Source: an uncultured Spirochaetia bacterium (GTDB lineage Bacteria; Spirochaetota; Brachyspiria; Brachyspirales; Brachyspiraceae). From it: a DNA stretch of 64,000 nt. Location of the stretch: contig CAMRBQ010000004.1 in NCBI GenBank assembly GCA_947040495.1, positions 1-64,000 of the forward strand, read 5' to 3'. Made by a program: the position numbers and the translations under genes. Under the pieces are notes generated by a model. That model searched no databases and had not been told where the DNA came from. It worked only from the letters and a program-made list of their open reading frames with translations. Below, in pieces: positions 3,790-42,479 of this stretch; the first letter of the stretch is position 1; each line of letters begins with the position of its first letter.

Positions 3790-4536
3790 ATGAAAAAAAT
3801 AGTACTTATAAGGCATGGAGAAAGTGTTTGGAATAAAGAAAATTTATTTACAGGCTGGACAGATGTTACTCTTTCTGAAAAAGGGATGGAAGAGGCAAAA
3901 AAAGGTGGTCAGGCTTTAAAAAATAATGGTTATAGTTTTGACAAAGCTTATACCTCAGTATTGGTTCGAGCAATAAAAACATTAAATATCGTACTTGAAG
4001 AAATGGGTGAATCATGGATACCTGTTGAAAAAGCATGGCAATTAAATGAAAGACATTATGGTGCATTACAAGGATTAAATAAATCTCAAACTGCTGAAAA
4101 ATATGGTGAAGAGCAAGTAAAAATCTGGAGACGTAGTTATGATACACCACCACCACCATTAGAAAAAACAGATGATAGATATCCAGGTAAAGATAAAAGA
4201 TATGCAAATATGAATGAAAAAGATTTACCTCTTACAGAATGTTTAAAAGATACAGTTGCAAGGGTTATTCCTTATTGGGAAAATGAAATACTTAAAGATG
4301 TCAAAGAGGGTAAAAATATTGTTGTAGCAGCACATGGGAATAGCTTACGTACCCTTGTTAAATATTTAGATGATATATCTGATGAAGATATTATAGAAGT
4401 AAATATACCTACTGGTATGCCACTTGTTTATGAGCTTGATGATAATTATAAAGCTATCAATAAATATTATCTTGGTGACCCAGAAGATGTAAAAAAGGCT
4501 ATGGAAGCCGTTGCTAATCAGGGTAAAAAAAAATAA
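3790..4536 (+). CDS. gpmA: 2,3-bisphosphoglycerate-dependent phosphoglycerate mutase
   Basis: This 248-residue enzyme interconverts 3-phosphoglycerate and 2-phosphoglycerate in glycolysis. The phosphohistidine motif LIRHGES is at residues 6-12, with His9 accepting the phosphate. It is followed by the typical [15 protein letters not shown], the substrate-loop element [12 protein letters not shown], and the second active-site motif [14 protein letters not shown] near residue 180. Length is normal for the dPGM family. A strong promoter lies upstream. The next gene begins 39 bases downstream with no terminator between, so the two may be cotranscribed. Confidence 0.95.
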
Positions 4537-34654: not shown

Positions 34655-35599
34655 TTATTTTTGCTCTAATCCATTATCTTTTAATGTTGCTTTATACGAA
34701 GAGATATTTGTATAAAGATCATTTGCAAATGAATTTTTAATACTTTGTTTTTTCATTTGTATAATTTGGAATATAAGAACTCCAATATTTACAGATAATG
34801 ATGCTATACTCAATACAAGCATGGCATTTGGATTATTTGTTGATTTAACTGCAAATTGTGAAGAGCTTGCAAAAGCTGGAATAGTCAATGTGAACATAGC
34901 ATATAATGCTAAAGTTTGTGCACGATGTTGTAGCCAGACACCCTTCTTAATAAAAAATGAAGCAATCATTGCTGTTATTACAAGCAAGGTTCCCGCATAA
35001 AAAGAACGGTCTGAAATTGAATTATAACAATATGATGCATTCCATAGACTATAAGCAATTATCCAAAACCAAAGCATATCAGGCCATACAAGGTCACGGC
35101 TCTTTGTGTTTGCAATTTTTATACCTAGCCAACCTGTAATAGTAATTATACTAATAATACCAGCTATGGCATTAATAATATTCCATGAACCACCCATCAT
35201 TGTAAGACCATTTTCAACAACTTTTAGACCATTAAAATTTGCATATACTTCATAATCACGATAGACAGCTTCTAAAATATTAAATGAAAGTATTGCGGCA
35301 GGAAATATAAACATAAATTTTGAGCCTTCAAGTCTTTTAATATGTCTAATAGCCATAAATCCAATAATACCTAAAAGTGCTGAGTATGTCTTTACCCATG
35401 CAAACCAATAACCAGAAGTTGAGCCCTCGCCCGCTGTTTTTGGCCATACAAAAATAGTAAGTATAATTGGCAAGAGAATATATATACCTATTGATAAATA
35501 TTTTGATCTACGGGTAATCTCATTTAGGAGTAGTAATACTCCAATGACAAGAGCCGCCATAAGTAATGTTGTAACTGGGATTTTTTCATAAAAGAACAT
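34655..35599 (-). CDS. Multi-pass membrane protein (DUF5692-like) of the redox island
   Basis: The 314-residue protein has about nine membrane helices and a short polar C terminus. A central motif (LWFWIIAYSLWNASYCYNS) is shared with the broken gene at 38326-39108, so the two are paralogues. I associate the family with DUF5692, but only from memory. It may be the membrane partner of the flavin reductase encoded directly upstream, 12 bases away. GAGG before the start supports ATG at 35599. The frame is intact. No heme or quinone motif can be proven. Confidence 0.6.
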   Translation of the reverse strand: MFFYEKIPVTTLLMAALVIGVLLLLNEITRRSKYLSIGIYILLPIILTIFVWPKTAGEGSTSGYWFAWVKTYSALLGIIGFMAIRHIKRLEGSKFMFIFPAAILSFNILEAVYRDYEVYANFNGLKVVENGLTMMGGSWNIINAIAGIISIITITGWLGIKIANTKSRDLVWPDMLWFWIIAYSLWNASYCYNSISDRSFYAGTLLVITAMIASFFIKKGVWLQHRAQTLALYAMFTLTIPAFASSSQFAVKSTNNPNAMLVLSIASLSVNIGVLIFQIIQMKKQSIKNSFANDLYTNISSYKATLKDNGLEQK

Positions 35600-35611
35600 G
35601 GGAACCTCGCT

Positions 35612-36775
35612 TTATAATCTTATTTCTACATTTGAAATTGGATAGGCTTTACAAGAATGTATATATCCAAATTTAGTATCCGTAAGCCTCAATGCAACTC
35701 CACGAGGCATGAACACTTTACCGCTTATAAGCTTGATACGACATAGACTACATTCGCCACTTCTACAACATACATTTATACGAATATTTTCTCGTTCCAG
35801 TGAAGTAAGTATAGATTCGTTTGCTTTTGCATTAATTACTTTATCACCGATAGTTATTTTGAATGTTTCATTGCCAATGAGTTCTTTTGGCCAGCCTTCC
35901 TCATTTTGTATATCTTGACGAGAGCCAAATACTTCTCTTCGAATATGATTATGTGGTGTGTTTAATAATTGCAATGCTTTCATACAGAAGTCAGTCATTA
36001 TCTGTGGTCCGCATAAATAAAAAGTATAATCGTTTACATTTCCGATTAATTCTTTGATACATTTGTCATCAATAAAGCCTGTCTTACATTTACAATCTTT
36101 GTTAGGCTCTGATAATACTAAATGATAGTTGAAATTAGAATGAGTTTTTCCTAACTTAGTTAGTTCATCATTAAAAATAGCTATGTCTTCGCTACGACTA
36201 CCATAAATTAAATGTATTTCACGGTCAGCACCGCTTTCAACAATCTCTTTTGTCATACTCATAAATGGAGTAATTCCACTACCACCAGCAAGAAATACAG
36301 ATTTTCTCTTATGAAAAATAGGGTTATAATGAAATGTCCCAGCAGGCCCGTTAGCTTTAAAAACATCACCGATTTTTACTTTATCTAGGAAATAGTCGGA
36401 TATAAACCCCGCAGGAATTTTTGCAACTGTGATTTCATAATATGCACGTTGTTTAGGACTACTTGAAATACTATATGGACGACTTGTACGAATACCATCA
36501 ATTTCAATAAATATATTAATATATTGCCCCGCTTGAAAAACAGGCAAATATCCATTTGTAGATATAAGACGAATTGTTTTTGCAATGTTTGTTTCATTAG
36601 TAATTTCTAAGACTTTCAAATAGAGTCTTTGAGGATGTATTTTATTTATAATGTCCCTTGTTTGAAAACGATCGGCAGCATAATCACGACCATTGCGTGT
36701 GCCTACCATACGGTCAAGTAAAACATCGGGACCATTTACCATTGAGCTTATAATTGTGTCTTTTAAACTTGGCAT
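35612..36775 (-). CDS. Flavin reductase with C-terminal [2Fe-2S] domain
   Basis: The 387-residue protein is a ferredoxin-NADP reductase-type flavoprotein fused to a plant-type ferredoxin. RPYS at 99-102 binds FAD, GGSGITP at 164-170 and FYLCGPQIM near 253 bind NAD(P)H. Cysteines 337, 342, 345 and 375 form the C-X4-C-X2-C-X29-C iron-sulfur site. The first 45 residues are an extension without assigned function. Electrons would flow from NAD(P)H through FAD to the cluster and on to a partner. Its start overlaps the stop of the neighbouring flavoprotein gene by one base. It is intact, unlike that neighbour. Confidence 0.85.
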   Translation of the reverse strand: MPSLKDTIISSMVNGPDVLLDRMVGTRNGRDYAADRFQTRDIINKIHPQRLYLKVLEITNETNIAKTIRLISTNGYLPVFQAGQYINIFIEIDGIRTSRPYSISSSPKQRAYYEITVAKIPAGFISDYFLDKVKIGDVFKANGPAGTFHYNPIFHKRKSVFLAGGSGITPFMSMTKEIVESGADREIHLIYGSRSEDIAIFNDELTKLGKTHSNFNYHLVLSEPNKDCKCKTGFIDDKCIKELIGNVNDYTFYLCGPQIMTDFCMKALQLLNTPHNHIRREVFGSRQDIQNEEGWPKELIGNETFKITIGDKVINAKANESILTSLERENIRINVCCRSGECSLCRIKLISGKVFMPRGVALRLTDTKFGYIHSCKAYPISNVEIRL

Positions 36776-38307
36776 TATTCTGTCTCCTTAATAACTCTTT
36801 TAGCAATTCTATCACCATAAATGTAGTTGGGGCCAAAGCCGCATGTGTTTACCCAACCGCTTGTAAATGTAAGTCCTTTAATAAATTCATCTTGTGGGAA
36901 AAAGAATACAGATGATTTAAGGTCTTGCTCAAACCCATATACTGAACCACCAGGATGACCTAAATAACGCATATGTGTTAGAGGTGTTGCAACTTCAATT
37001 TCTTCAATATGACTACGGAAACCTGGGAATTTGACTTCAAGTCTATCAATAATTTGATTGGCTAGTCTATACTTTGTTTCATTATATTGCTCAGGTGAAA
37101 GCTCTTCCCAAGGTGCCGAATATTTTAAAACACCAGCTGTTATAATGCTCGTACCTTCGGGAGAAACGGTCGGGTCATCAACAGTATAATTAGTTGCAAT
37201 AATAGGGTCAACAGTGGCATTAAGATTATATGCATTCATAAAATCTTTATTTGCATCTAAGCTATCATAATTTAGATTAAATGAATCTGTAAAGCCAATC
37301 GTTTCAGGTGGACAATCAAGTCCAATAAAACAGGTTAATGCAGAAATACCAACTGTATAACCTTTCAAATATTCACGAGCCTCAGCAGGGATTTCATTTT
37401 CTTGTAATAATTTAAAATATGTATGAATTGGCGAAATATTTGAAATAATAGTTTTAGCATGATATTCATTACCAAATTCATCAACAACAGCTACTGCTTT
37501 TTTATCTTCAATTATAATATGTTCGATAGCACAATTATATTTTATCTCTCCACCAAGGTCTATAATTCTATCAGCTAGTGATTGAGATATAACTTGTGAA
37601 CCACCACGAATATAAAAAGGTTTTTCTTCTGTGTATATATGAAGGACACGAGCTAAAATTGAAAATGGAAAGCGTTTTGGAGGCATGCCCATAAAGCATC
37701 AATGTGCTGACAATGCTAGTTGTAGTTCACGACTTTTAAAAAATTCGTCCAAAACATCTTGTGTGCTACGTACTGCATACTTTGCAAGAGTTGGATATTT
37801 TTTTGGAAAACCTATTTTCATAATCATTTTTTTTAGAGAAGAGGCTTCGCCTGTACTACCAGCACTGGCTGCTAGAAATGAATTTATTTCTTTATTAAAG
37901 AGATATACCATTTTATAATATTCTAAAATAGAATTTTCTTCTTCAGGAAATTCTTTTATCAATGCTTTTTCAGCAAGATCTCTATTTGCAGGTAGAGCAA
38001 TACCTTTATTTCCAGGCAAATTAACTTTATATAGAGTATCAATTTCTATCCAGTCAATATTATCGACTATTCCATATTCTTAAAATAGTGTACGTAGTGG
38101 ACCAGGGTTTTCTTTCGTCCCCATACTGCTTAATTGATGTAGTGCGACCTCAAATTCAAAGCGACCACGGCGAAAGCTAGTACCACAACCACCGGGTATA
38201 TTATGCTTTTCAAATATTACAACTTTTTTATTTGCTATTGCAAGTCTTGTTGCGGCAGAAAGACCAGCATTCCCCGCACCAATTATAATTACATCGTAAT
38301 CATTCAT
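36775..38307 (-). pseudogene. Phytoene-desaturase-like FAD oxidoreductase with two in-frame stops
   Basis: A single continuous frame of about 510 codons encodes a CrtI-like flavoprotein. The FAD motif is IIIGAGNAGLSAATRL at residues 6-21, then EKHNIPGGCGTSF, GGSQVISQSLADRI in the middle and the C-terminal motif YGFEQDLK. The frame is interrupted twice: TAA at 38080-38082 after PLRTLF, and TGA at 37699-37701 between SAH and CFMGMPP. No frameshift separates the parts. Both look like point mutations, probably Glu and Trp codons. The C-terminal piece could be translated from an internal ATG but would lack the FAD site. It is translationally linked to the downstream reductase. Confidence 0.85.
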
Positions 38308-38325
38308 AGAGTTATTCCCCTTTTA

Positions 38326-39108
38326 TTATTTTAATATCACAGAGAGTACCATTAGTACAATGTTTACTATCATAAATACAATTTGTGCTCGAGTAGTCTT
38401 TGTACAGTTTACAAATTTACTGAAAGCATCTGATTCTAAGGCAACTTCAAGTTGTTGTTTTCCATTTGTACACATCCGCCAAAGGTTAGGGAATTAGCTC
38501 TAAAGATAAGCCAGTAGCCAGGTGTCCATAATAATAGGCAGCTAACAATAGGTGCTAATAAAATTCCAACATGTAATCTTGAAATAGAATCTGAAAATTC
38601 ATTAGTTACAAATATCCAATTCCAGATAGTATATGCTATAATCCAAAATATAGTTCCCCAAACGGTTAGCATATTTGCTTCATAGATATGAGCAAAAGGG
38701 GCTAAATCTGTTAAGTCAATCCATTTTGTTTGTAGGAAATATACTGAAATTGTAAGTAAAATACCGGTTATACCATTCCATATTTTCTTACGTTTAAAAT
38801 CTGTAAGTGTTGCTTCTATTATATTTATATCTAAAAATATAAGTACTATTTTTAGATATAAATATATCTCGGTTTAAAATATTAAACACCGCAAGCAAAA
38901 TGGCAGCACGTAGTATTATTAATGTAGAAAGTTTTAGTTTTTCAAAGAAAACCATTTTACAAGTGAGCATAATCCCTATAGGCAAAAGCACATTTATAGG
39001 TATATTAGCAAAAACTGGCAAAAATGATGAGAGCATAGATACGCTCATTATTGAAACTGTTAGAATTAGCCATAATATACGTTGTTTATTCTTATTTTTA
39101 GATTCCAT
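38326..39108 (-). pseudogene. Paralogous membrane protein, two frameshifts
   Basis: The start (MESKNKNKQRILWLIL) opens a multi-helix membrane protein. At about 38850 the frame must shift to continue with DINIIEATLTDFKRKKIWNG and the motif IFWIIAYTIWNW. Near 38455 a second shift is needed to reach the end, QLEVALESDAFSKFV and a last membrane helix, stopping at 38326. The central motif matches the intact membrane protein at 34655-35599, so this is a second copy of that family. It is the first gene of the leftward arm, 18 bases before the broken flavoprotein gene. Confidence 0.75.
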
Positions 39109-39181
39109 AAATATACACCCCTTTTTAATATATATTATAATTAAAGTCTATGCTTAATATCTCGATTGTCAAGAAAGATCT

Positions 39182-39209
39182 TTGCAATTTGATAAAATAA
39201 TACTATATT
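39182..39209 (+). promoter_or_regulatory. Promoter of the rightward island arm
   Basis: TTGCAA (39182-39187) and TATATT (39204-39209) are 16 bases apart in the 143-base gap between the divergent arms. A run GGGGGG follows near 39218. The leftward promoter was not identified. Confidence 0.4.
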
Positions 39210-39251
39210 TAACTTTAGGGGGGTATATTTTAGATTTAAATAGGACTTAAT

Positions 39252-39922
39252 ATGGAAAATTTTAGAATTATTGAGATCAAAGAAAGTATTTATAAAAATA
39301 ATAATGAGCAGGCAGATTTGCTTAGAGAAAAACTTAAAAAAGAAAAAACTTTTTTATTAAATTTGATGTCATCACCGGGCTCTGGAAAAACTACTACGGT
39401 TTTAAGAACTATCGAGGCATTAAAAGATGAAATAAAAATAGGCATTGTAGAAGCTGATATAGATTCTGATGTAGATGCAAAATCAGTTGCTAAAACTGGC
39501 ACAAAAGTAATTCAATTGCATACAGGGGGCATGTGCCATCTCAATGCTGATATGACTAAACAAGGATTAAACGCATTGGGTACAGAGGAACTTGATTTTG
39601 TTATACTTGAAAATATTGGAAACCTGATTTGTCCTGCTGAATTTGATACGGGCTCATCTAAAAATGCTATGATTTTGAGTGTGCCTGAAGGAGATGATAA
39701 ACCATTAAAATATCCATCAATGTTTGCGCTAGTTGATGTTCTTCTAATAAGTAAAATAGATGTGCTAGAACATTTTGACTTGATGCTAATGCTGTAATAA
39801 GTGTGGTGAAAAAATCAAATCCTAATATTAAAATATTTCAAATCTCTTCTAAAACAGGTCAAGGTATTGAAGAGTGGATTAATTGGGTACGTATTGAAGA
39901 AAAAAAATGGAATAATAAATAA
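39252..39922 (+). pseudogene. hypB: Nickel-insertion GTPase HypB, frameshifted
   Basis: HypB delivers nickel to metalloenzymes, classically [NiFe] hydrogenase. The frame begins with the P-loop SSPGSGKTT (residues 41-48 for the core), has the metal site GGMCHLNADM around Cys95-His96, and FVILENIGNLICPAEFD. After VLEHFD (about 39780) it shifts, and DANAVISVV, FQISSKTGQGIEEW continues in another frame to 39922. Loss of one T in GACTTTGAT explains the shift. The truncated product keeps most GTPase elements but lacks the last 45 or so residues. There is no His-rich nickel-storage N terminus. Confidence 0.85.
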
Positions 39923-39942
39923 ATAACAATGGGAGAATGGTG

Positions 39943-42137
39943 ATGGTAAATGAAAAAATATTAGACCTTGCTAATAAAATTAGTAGGACAAAACGTGGCT
40001 CAAAATCAGAGATTAAACCGGAATATCCTGAGTATAAAATTTTAGAGCCAGTTGTAACAGATGAAATGGCGGATGTTGCGATTTTTCTTGAATTCCATGC
40101 TCCACAAAGTGCAGAAGAGGTTGCTGCTTTATGTGGAAAATCGCTAGAAGAAACTTCTAGAATTCTTTGGGATTTAGCGATTGCTGGTGTTGCTTTAATG
40201 GGCGAAAAAGATGGTGTAGATAAGTATTGGTTTGAAGTTTGGGTACACCCGGTCATATGGAGATGATTGTTAATCATCCATTTAAGGGCAGTGTTGAAAA
40301 TTATAAGCAAATAGCAAAGGCCTTTGATGATTATGGTAAAAGGCGTGGTCCTATGGGGGCTGGTATTTTTCCTGTAGGAATGGGGCCTATGCGTGTAATT
40401 CCTATTGAGCAGGCAATTCAAGGTGATACAAAAAGAGTTTCATATGAAGAGGTTTCAAAATATCTGAATGATAATACTATTTTTTCTGTATCAGACTGTT
40501 CTTGTCGTGCTTCAAGAGAGGCTTTAGGTGAAGGTTGTGGACACTTGAAAGAGGATATGTGTATTCAATTAGGGCATGGTGCGGAGTATTATATTCGTAC
40601 AAAACGTGGTCGTGAGATTACACGAGAAGAGGCTTTTGATATTATTAAAAGGGCTGAAGAAAATGGCTTGATGCATGAAATGCCAAATATGGATGGCTCG
40701 GGTAAAACACATGCTATTTGTAATTGCTGTGGATGTTCATGTTATTCATTAAGAATAGCAGGTATGTTTTTAAATAATGATATGATACGTTCTAATTATG
40801 TATCAAATGTTGATAAAGAGAAATGTGTCGCTTGTGGAGAATGTGTTGCAGTATGTCCTGTTAATGCTTTGAAACTAGGTCAAAAGATATGTTCTAAAGA
40901 GCCATTGCCAGAAAATAGGAGATAGGATTTTCCAACCGATACAGAATGGGGAACTGATAAGTGGAACCATGATTATCGTACAAATAGAGAGGGTTGTAGA
41001 AACAGGTACTAGCCCTTGTAAGACAAAATGCCCTGCTCATATTTCTGTTCAAGGATATATAAAATTAGCAGCACAAGGTAAATATAAAGAAGCATTGGAA
41101 CTTATAAAAAATGAGAATCCTTTTCCTGCTGTTTGTGGATGCATTTGCCCAAGTGAATGTGAGTCTGCTTGTACCAGAGGTGATATTGATTCACCTGTTG
41201 CTATAGATGAGATTAAAAAATTTATTGCTGAACAAGATTTGAATATTGAAAATAGGTATATTCCAAGAATAAGACATGAATATGATAAAATGAAGAGATG
41301 CCTGCTTTACCAGAAGAACTTGAAGAGGCTTTAACTGAAGATGTTGGAATAAATAATTCATGGGGGCCTAAGCGTATACTTGTAAAAAATGGAAAAGTTG
41401 TAGGTGTTGAATTTATAAAGTGCCTTTCTGTCTTTGATGAAAATGGAAAATTCAACCCAGTTTATGATGATGCTAATATTAAAAAAGTAGAGGCAGATAA
41501 AGTATTACTTTCTGTAGGACAAGTGATTGAATGGGGTAATCTTATAGATGGTAGCAAAGTATCTCTTAATACAAATCATACAGCGAAAGCTGATTCATTT
41601 ACATTACAAACAGATGAACCTGATATATTTGTAGGTGGTGATGTTATGACAGGACCAAGATTTGCTATTGATGCCATTTCATTCGGTAAAGAAGCGGCTA
41701 TTTCAATACATCGTTATGTTCAAGTAGGACAGAGTTTAACTTTAGGTAGAGATAAAAGACATTTTCATTCGCTCGATAAAGATAATTTAAATTTAGCCGG
41801 TTATGATGCAATACCTAGAGAAAAGGCAGGGCATGATAAAACGGCTGCCCCGAAGTCATCATTTAAGGATATTAGAAATACATTTACAGCTGAGCAAATT
41901 GCCAAAGAAACTGAACGTTGTCTTGGGTGTGGAGTGACTGTTGTTGATGAATATTTATGCTTAGGTTGTGGTGCTTGTACGACTAGATGTAAATTAGATG
42001 CTATCTCACTTAAGAGAGCACATGATGCAACAGGGAAGGTATTTGAAGAACTTAAACCTGTAATTGTTCGAGCAGCTATAAAGCGTAAGGGAAAAATTAT
42101 TGCTAAAAAAATTAAGGGCGTATTTAAGAAAAAATAA
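39943..42137 (+). pseudogene. Large Fe-S/FAD oxidoreductase, heavily decayed
   Basis: The pieces belong to one protein: an N-terminal helical segment, a ferredoxin-type part with DCSCRASREALGEGCG, CNCCGCSC and CVACGECVAVCP, and a GltD-like part with CKTKCPAHI, CGCICPSECESACTRGDID. The C-terminal end has DEPDIFVGGDVMTGP and CLGCGACTTRC. Breaks are: a 2-base insertion near 40245-40248, a TAG at 40923-40925, a frameshift near 40989, and a deletion near 41290 that removes the expected FAD-binding GxGxxG and neighbouring sequence. GGGAG supports the start at 39943. Intact relatives would be about twice-domain flavoproteins that pass electrons between NAD(P)H and Fe-S centres. It cannot be functional as a whole. 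Confidence 0.85.
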
Positions 42138-42158
42138 TAATAAAATAGGTGGTATAAA

Positions 42159-42479
42159 TTGCATGAATTAAGTGTTGTTTTTGAGATTGTCAAGTCGGTA
42201 GAAAAGTTTGTACAGACGAATAATTTAGTCAAAGTTGATAAACTAGTTTTACAGATAGGGCAATTGTCCGCAATGATTCCAAAATATATAGAGGAATGTT
42301 ATCCTGCTGCTGTGGATGGCGCAATATTGGAAGATACAAAATTAGAGATTGAAATATTACCCGCCAATGGACTTTGTAAGGATTGTAAAAAGGTTTTTAA
42401 TTTGATAGAAAATAATAAAATTTGCCCTCATTGTGGATGCGATTCTTGGGATCTACTTGGGGGAGAGAATTTTTTATAA
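42159..42479 (+). CDS. hypA: Nickel metallochaperone HypA
   Basis: The 106-residue protein matches HypA. The essential nickel ligand His2 follows the initiator directly (M-H-E-L-S), which fixes the start at the TTG codon 42159, with AGGTGG as ribosome site. A C-terminal zinc site has CKDC and CPHC. Length is normal. It is intact although hypB and the flavoprotein gene upstream are broken. No hydrogenase subunit or hypC-F gene is in the window, so its client may be another nickel enzyme. Confidence 0.9.
   Translation: MHELSVVFEIVKSVEKFVQTNNLVKVDKLVLQIGQLSAMIPKYIEECYPAAVDGAILEDTKLEIEILPANGLCKDCKKVFNLIENNKICPHCGCDSWDLLGGENFL

Follow-up and report, generated by a model that had tools for sequence, protein, structure and literature searches.

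A recently acquired and broken two-module island in a spirochaete genome, a probable nickel-linked system for anaerobic double-bond hydrogenation

Introduction

The nickel metallochaperone HypA and the nickel GTPase HypB classically serve [NiFe] hydrogenase, and reports that rumen spirochaetes hydrogenate linoleate date back decades. The anaerobic hydrogenation of unactivated conjugated double bonds, such as those of isoprene in soils or of linoleic acid in the rumen and gut, includes a reductase step for which the literature that we found holds no proven gene or mechanism. Strain Y reduces conjugated dienes and not isolated double bonds (PMC9765523). The only candidate family for the reductase is IsrA, whose described member is a putative isoprene reductase of 901 amino acids from Acetobacterium wieringae, encoded in an operon with HypA and HypB and without a [NiFe] hydrogenase (Kronen et al. 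2023, PMC10134865, cited throughout from part of its text). The neighbours recorded there for 988 IsrA homologues include HypA (0.73), HypB (0.56), DUF5692 (0.40) and TetR (0.21). In this work we describe an island of seven genes located between cdsA and smc in a stretch of 64,000 nucleotides (the window) from an uncultured Spirochaetia bacterium of the Brachyspiraceae (GenBank assembly GCA_947040495.1, contig CAMRBQ010000004.1, positions 1 to 64,000). We consider it rather likely that this island is a recently acquired, now broken, two-module system for anaerobic nickel-linked hydrogenation of double bonds (biohydrogenation), with an unsaturated fatty acid or a similar lipid as the most likely substrate.

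Results

The window is contig C4 of a draft genome of 2.55 Mb in 165 contigs (G000). Its place in the Spirochaetota agrees with G182, a genome of that phylum whose IsrA is identical to the one of Spirochaetae bacterium HGW-Spirochaetae-5. The island consists of two divergent arms, the leftward one with the order, in the direction of transcription, second DUF5692–CrtI-like flavoprotein–FRed–DUF5692, and the rightward one with the order hypB–isrA–hypA. Lesions were called by alignment to a genome of the same family and another genus, G003, where the seven genes are spread over two contigs and arranged as in the window, with 86% nucleotide identity and none of its lesions. In G003, contig ends interrupt the CrtI-like gene, and FRed includes adapter sequence. 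This apparent Illumina adapter is read in FRed as RSEEHTSELQ (L008, about 4080-4115), and the frame at the contig end (G003:C92) begins GVQTCALPIC. The features of the island, with the lesions found against G003, are as follows.

34655..35599, minus strand: DUF5692 (PF18948) integral membrane protein, 314 aa, intact (Pfam E 2.5e-111)
35612..36775, minus strand: FRed, NAD(P)H-FAD-[2Fe-2S] reductase, 387 aa, intact (FAD_binding_6, NAD_binding_1, Fer2)
36775..38307, minus strand: CrtI/carotenoid-isomerase-like flavoprotein, pseudogene with two nonsense codons (TAA at 38082, TGA at 37701); intact orthologues are 61-72% identical
38329..39108, minus strand: a shorter second membrane protein of the DUF5692 family, now a pseudogene through +4 and -4 frameshifts; its G003 counterpart is intact, at 260 aa
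39109..39251, no strand: divergent intergenic region of 143 bp separating the two arms
39252..39922, plus strand: hypB (nickel GTPase), with a -1 frameshift near residue 177 (TIGR00073 E 7.4e-59, over cut-off); intact 223-aa copy in G003
39937..42137, plus strand: isrA-type Fe-S/FAD oxidoreductase, pseudogene with a +2 frameshift, a nonsense codon, a -2 frameshift and a 493-bp deletion at 41290/41291; intact 893-aa orthologue in G003
42159..42479, plus strand: hypA (nickel metallochaperone), with a -1 frameshift altering the last residues only (PF01155 E 1.5e-25, over cut-off)

The first DUF5692 protein shares 89% identity with its G003 copy. FRed resembles PaaE/HCR proteins with an N-terminal extension, its PaaE-like score being under the cut-off. 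The hypA gene starts with TTG both in the window (42159) and in G003 (L009 5288).

The large oxidoreductase is identified by alignment, domain content and Cys motifs as an IsrA orthologue of clade 9. Its pieces in the window align over the whole protein of about 900 amino acids with the exception of the 493-bp deletion, and the G003 protein has PF07992 FAD/NAD(P) and PF14691 DPYD-II domains as well as extra 4Fe-4S sites. Two CxC motifs (C185/187 and C259/261 in G003, 72 residues apart) are invariant in 16 orthologues and present in the window fragment; the published positions in IsrA, Cys180/182 and Cys254/256, have the same spacing (PMC10134865). Full-length orthologues, 59-74% identical in Spirochaetota and Clostridia, are encoded in roughly two dozen of the 393 spirochaete genomes, as well as in numerous Clostridia, Chloroflexota and members of other groups. 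Membership of this family suggests that the protein would act like an ene-reductase for conjugated dienes. The initial annotation had held that the function of the system was not one that could be named; it can be named as that of an IsrA-type system, the published family of the putative isoprene reductase.

The identity of the enzyme that receives nickel was approached through the partners of hypA and hypB, which lie near 82 and 74, respectively, of 100 isrA loci. The [NiFe] large subunit (PF00374) was found in none of G000, G003 and G048, and HypD (PF01924) in none of the eight genomes searched. Since there is neither hydrogenase nor HypD and the two chaperone genes track isrA, IsrA itself is most likely the nickel client, as proposed also by Kronen et al. 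(PMC10134865); a nickel site in the protein is predicted from this linkage. Cobalt/nickel uptake genes of the CbiM/CbiQ energy-coupling factor type lie within a few genes of isrA in five loci (L046, L059, L086, L094 and L096), which fits IsrA as a nickel client, and other isrA loci carry FecCD/BtuF-like ABC importers. Alternatively, hypA and hypB could mature a nickel enzyme encoded elsewhere, such as a hydrogenase, CODH or lactate racemase, with the oxidoreductase as a bystander. The classical role of the two chaperones speaks for this explanation; nevertheless, it is improbable because hypA and hypB track isrA across phyla and no [NiFe] large subunit or HypD was detected in the genomes named above, CODH and LarA not having been searched for. 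Thus, the initial annotation was right that the island comes without a hydrogenase, and the additional nickel enzyme that it expected did not appear: the constant partner of hypA and hypB is the IsrA orthologue with its invariant Cys motifs.

The other genes of the island form a second module, CrtI-FRed-DUF5692, joined to the IsrA system; the combination is new, the IsrA family being known. In each of the 15 loci viewed, FRed is the gene immediately after the CrtI-like one, which holds down to 30-40% identity, and the order DUF5692small-CrtI-FRed-DUF5692 of the window recurs in five other spirochaete loci of the close clade. A structural model of the CrtI-like protein has gamma-carotene desaturase (4rep) as its nearest fold, with a template modelling score of 0.82-0.85, a resemblance that would suit long hydrophobic substrates. 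The model of DUF5692 is mostly helical and has a predicted local distance difference test score (pLDDT) of 91. Another TetR–CrtI-like–FAD-binding oxidoreductase arrangement, about 31% identical to the CrtI-like family, is found on a lactobacillus plasmid (Ligilactobacillus acidipiscis, stingless-bee source; L189 8001-10369).

The similarity of the CrtI-like protein to CrtI/CRTISO-type hidden Markov models and folds, together with its FAD motif, raises the question of whether the module is the remnant of a carotenoid pathway that happens to lie beside an unrelated nickel-chaperone operon. An unlinked gene of the phytoene/squalene-synthase family is indeed present in G000 (C62:191-781) and in G003 (C6:21728-22549), but these are the only two of the 10 genomes with the CrtI clade to have one, and its lack in the other eight makes a carotenoid role unlikely. 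In addition, none of the family scores comes near its curated cut-off, and CrtI-FRed stands in one operon with isrA-hypA in two clostridia. We therefore give this explanation very little credence; for most hosts a carotenoid pathway was rejected, as it is largely refuted by the distribution of the synthase-family gene.

The evidence that the two modules belong together comes from the two clostridial loci, which are intact co-directional operons with the orders TetR-DUF5692s-CrtI-FRed-isrA-hypA (L117) and DUF5692s-CrtI-FRed-hypB-isrA-hypA (L187). Only 2 of 295 genomes of that clostridial order have the CrtI clade, and both are the carriers of these operons. Among the 393 spirochaete genomes, full isrA is present in 6 of the 8 that have the CrtI clade and in 21 of the 385 others (Fisher p 1.5e-6, phylogeny-uncorrected). 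The modules usually lie apart, for example at 0.61 and 1.02 Mb in G048. In trees, the CrtI-like protein and FRed of the island are nearest to L117 (support 96/99), while the island IsrA, 74% identical to that of Clostridium sulfidigenes and 62% to that of L117, falls in a clade apart from L117. Because their trees conflict, the modules must have come together on at least two occasions, and this argues strongly for a common function. The view in the initial annotation that the genes are one coherent system is thus borne out by the intact recurrence in G003 and in the clostridial operons. The seven-gene neighbourhood whose search it had proposed occurs with all seven genes in G003 and, for six of the seven genes, as intact operons in the two clostridia; the constant extra nickel enzyme it expected was not found.

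The comparison of G000 with G003 also bears on the origin of the island. The housekeeping proteins of the two genomes are 72% (Pnp), 69% (Frr), 61% (UppS) and 48% (CdsA) identical, with dS (synonymous divergence) of 1.1-2.2, whereas the island proteins are 79-93% identical (HypA lowest, the others 86-93%), with dS of 0.55-0.97. In G003 the island is not between cdsA and smc; it lies beside smpB and lipoprotein genes. Since the island is much more similar than the housekeeping genes and occupies a different chromosomal site, it must have been exchanged horizontally, or received from a common donor, after the lineages split. DUF5692 was detected only in G000 and G003 among the 29 genomes of the family that were searched. 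Relatives keep the frr-uppS-cdsA order, but smc does not follow cdsA in them, and no clean empty site was shown. As to marks of integration, the window has no tRNA, the island has no Rfam match, and no convincing direct repeats flank it. A plasmid search was uninformative for the island: a Subdoligranulum replicon encodes a remote IsrA (49%), and there were two remote CrtI-like matches (26-31%), one of them on the lactobacillus plasmid described above. These comparisons indicate that the island was acquired horizontally and then broke. Accordingly, the proposal in the initial annotation that the system is being lost in this lineage holds in that the copy decays, and fails in that the island is not simply an old trait.

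The island copy in G000 is, as judged from its alignment, recently broken and decaying. The dN/dS (ratio of nonsynonymous to synonymous divergence) against G003 is 0.06-0.13 for every island gene, broken or intact; therefore, all were under selection until recently. These values, the lesion-free genes of G003 and the intact clostridial operons of six of the seven genes indicate that the lesion pattern is not due to chance. Tiling of the window with open reading frames revealed no obviously split gene besides those of the island, and both flanking genes, cdsA (302 aa) and smc (953 aa), have open frames. It could be argued that the lesions are sequencing or assembly errors and that the island is actually intact, considering that the draft is in 165 contigs and that the G003 assembly visibly holds adapter sequence. 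Against this stand the 493-bp deletion, the two nonsense codons within a single gene, the frameshifts by 1, 2 and 4 bases, and the confinement of the lesions to the island, its neighbouring genes being open. Such errors are highly improbable as the explanation. The gene content and the coordinates of both arms in the initial annotation were confirmed, and so were its statements that four of the seven genes are broken by differing kinds of mutation and that cdsA and smc are intact; the -1 frameshift at the end of hypA had escaped it. A perfect inverted repeat of 20 nucleotides with a 7-nucleotide loop (38820-38866) coincides exactly with the site of the +4 frameshift in the second DUF5692 gene; at this place G003 has an imperfect palindrome only. 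This frameshift looks like a hairpin-templated (template-switch) mutation.

Several weak lines make unsaturated fatty acids the leading, though unproven, candidate substrate. Ten of 100 isrA loci, belonging to two separate IsrA clades, encode PAI-like flavoproteins nearby, and the best of these proteins matches PDB entry 2b9w over its full length (E 4.5e-56), an entry that we take to be PAI, a fatty-acid isomerase. PAI is described as a linoleate isomerase (review PMC13365329). The PAI-like genes adjoin isrA in genomes that have no CrtI-like gene, which suggests that the two kinds of gene play equivalent roles. In eight loci (L059, L076, L077, L113, L125, L127, L131 and L146) the PAI-like genes beside isrA pair with a conserved protein of about 330-355 amino acids that resembles helix-turn-helix/transposase-derived regulators. 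An MCRA/oleate hydratase gene lies between DUF5692 and hypB in the isrA locus of an A. woodii metagenome-assembled genome, and another in the Anaeromonas isrA locus L076, which bears a PAI-like gene in the set PAI-hypB-isrA-DUF5692-hypA. The proximity of MCRA to IsrA was noted by Kronen et al., with linoleic acid undiscussed in the part of the text cited here (PMC10134865). Distant CrtI-FRed pairs (L165, L167) lie amid thiolase-, acyl-CoA synthetase- and enoyl-CoA hydratase-like genes, as read from the sequences; this context, reminiscent of acyl-CoA metabolism and beta-oxidation, hints that the pair may act on acyl chains. Oleate hydratase was also considered as a constant partner, a role unsupported by the distribution of MCRA in the genomes with the CrtI clade. 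Our literature search found no prior proposal linking fatty-acid biohydrogenation to the genes of the island.

The described substrate of IsrA and the carotenoid desaturase that is the nearest PDB fold of the CrtI-like protein would also accommodate a different reading, in which the IsrA-type system acts on a small or terpenoid conjugated hydrocarbon (isoprene, monoterpenes) and the CrtI-like enzyme on a terpenoid. We regard a terpenoid substrate as unlikely. The full isr operon, with its second hypA and ferredoxin, is not found here, possession of an IsrA homologue does not enable other Acetobacterium to reduce isoprene (PMC10134865), and the PAI-like, oleate hydratase and acyl-CoA gene neighbours point to fatty acids.

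Discussion

With an unsaturated fatty acid as the favoured substrate, the two modules can be arranged in a working model. In the first module, HypB and HypA would load nickel into the IsrA-type oxidoreductase, in which electrons could pass from NAD(P)H to FAD, through a chain of [4Fe-4S] clusters, and to the N-terminal Cys-rich site formed by the two CxC motifs, which perhaps contains nickel. This site would reduce a C=C bond, probably that of a conjugated diene. In the second module, FRed would pass electrons from NAD(P)H to the CrtI-like flavoenzyme and keep its FAD reduced; plant CRTISO requires reduced FAD. The CrtI-like enzyme may prepare the substrate by isomerising, or itself saturating, a double bond of a long hydrophobic chain, and the two DUF5692 membrane proteins may hold the lipid substrate or anchor the complex. 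If the natural substrate is an unsaturated fatty acid or a similar lipid, the role of the system would be detoxification, or the use of this lipid as an electron sink.

Several points weigh against this interpretation. The PAI and MCRA neighbours sit in isrA loci without the CrtI-FRed module, and MCRA is absent from 8 of the 10 genomes with the CrtI clade, one of the remaining two having it only below the cut-off. Two of the eight spirochaetes with the CrtI module do not have isrA, most isrA genomes do not have the CrtI module, and the co-occurrence statistic ignores phylogeny. A fold search with DUF5692 found no PDB relative at E<=0.001. The activity of every member of the CrtI-FRed clade is predicted, nickel in IsrA is predicted from the linkage to hypA and hypB, and even IsrA is a putative isoprene reductase, supported by proteomics (PMC10134865).

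A broader hypothesis can be advanced more tentatively, as possible but short of probable: IsrA-type operons with HypA/HypB and DUF5692 may be the missing anaerobic nickel-dependent reductases of conjugated fatty acids, acting after FAD isomerases or hydratases that can replace one another (PAI-like, oleate hydratase, or CrtI-like with its [2Fe-2S] reductase) and spread horizontally between Clostridia and spirochaetes. If nickel were confirmed, IsrA would represent a nickel redox enzyme of a new class. The island links the IsrA family to a second flavoenzyme module, and relatives of IsrA are linked to fatty-acid isomerases and hydratases. The outcome is a short list of intact operons suited to expression, with which the fatty-acid reading is testable.

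The components of the island can be compared with known systems. IsrA shares the central FAD/NAD(P) and Fer4_20 domains of NfnB/GltD-type flavoproteins, but has an additional Cys-rich N-terminal region and C-terminal clusters. The CrtI-like protein has the fold and FAD motif of CRTISO/CrtI/retinol-saturase-type enzymes, the known ones of which act on long hydrophobic polyenes. Unlike these, it scores far under the curated cut-offs, a carotenoid synthase is missing in most hosts, and a [2Fe-2S] reductase is always adjacent. With PAI it shares the FAD amine-oxidase fold, although it belongs to the CrtI/CRTISO branch and has a dedicated reductase. The closest likeness is to IsrA clade 9, with which the island has in common an Fe-S/FAD oxidoreductase of about 900 amino acids with the same domain order and CxC spacing, adjacent hypA and hypB, a DUF5692 neighbour and no [NiFe] hydrogenase. 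The second hypA and the ENOG4105DQ9-type ferredoxin of the A. wieringae isr operon were not seen in the window, G003, L117 or L187. In contrast to the described IsrA system, the genes of the island are broken, and the island adds a CrtI-like flavoprotein, a [2Fe-2S] reductase and a second DUF5692 protein, which the cited part of that report leaves unmentioned (PMC10134865).
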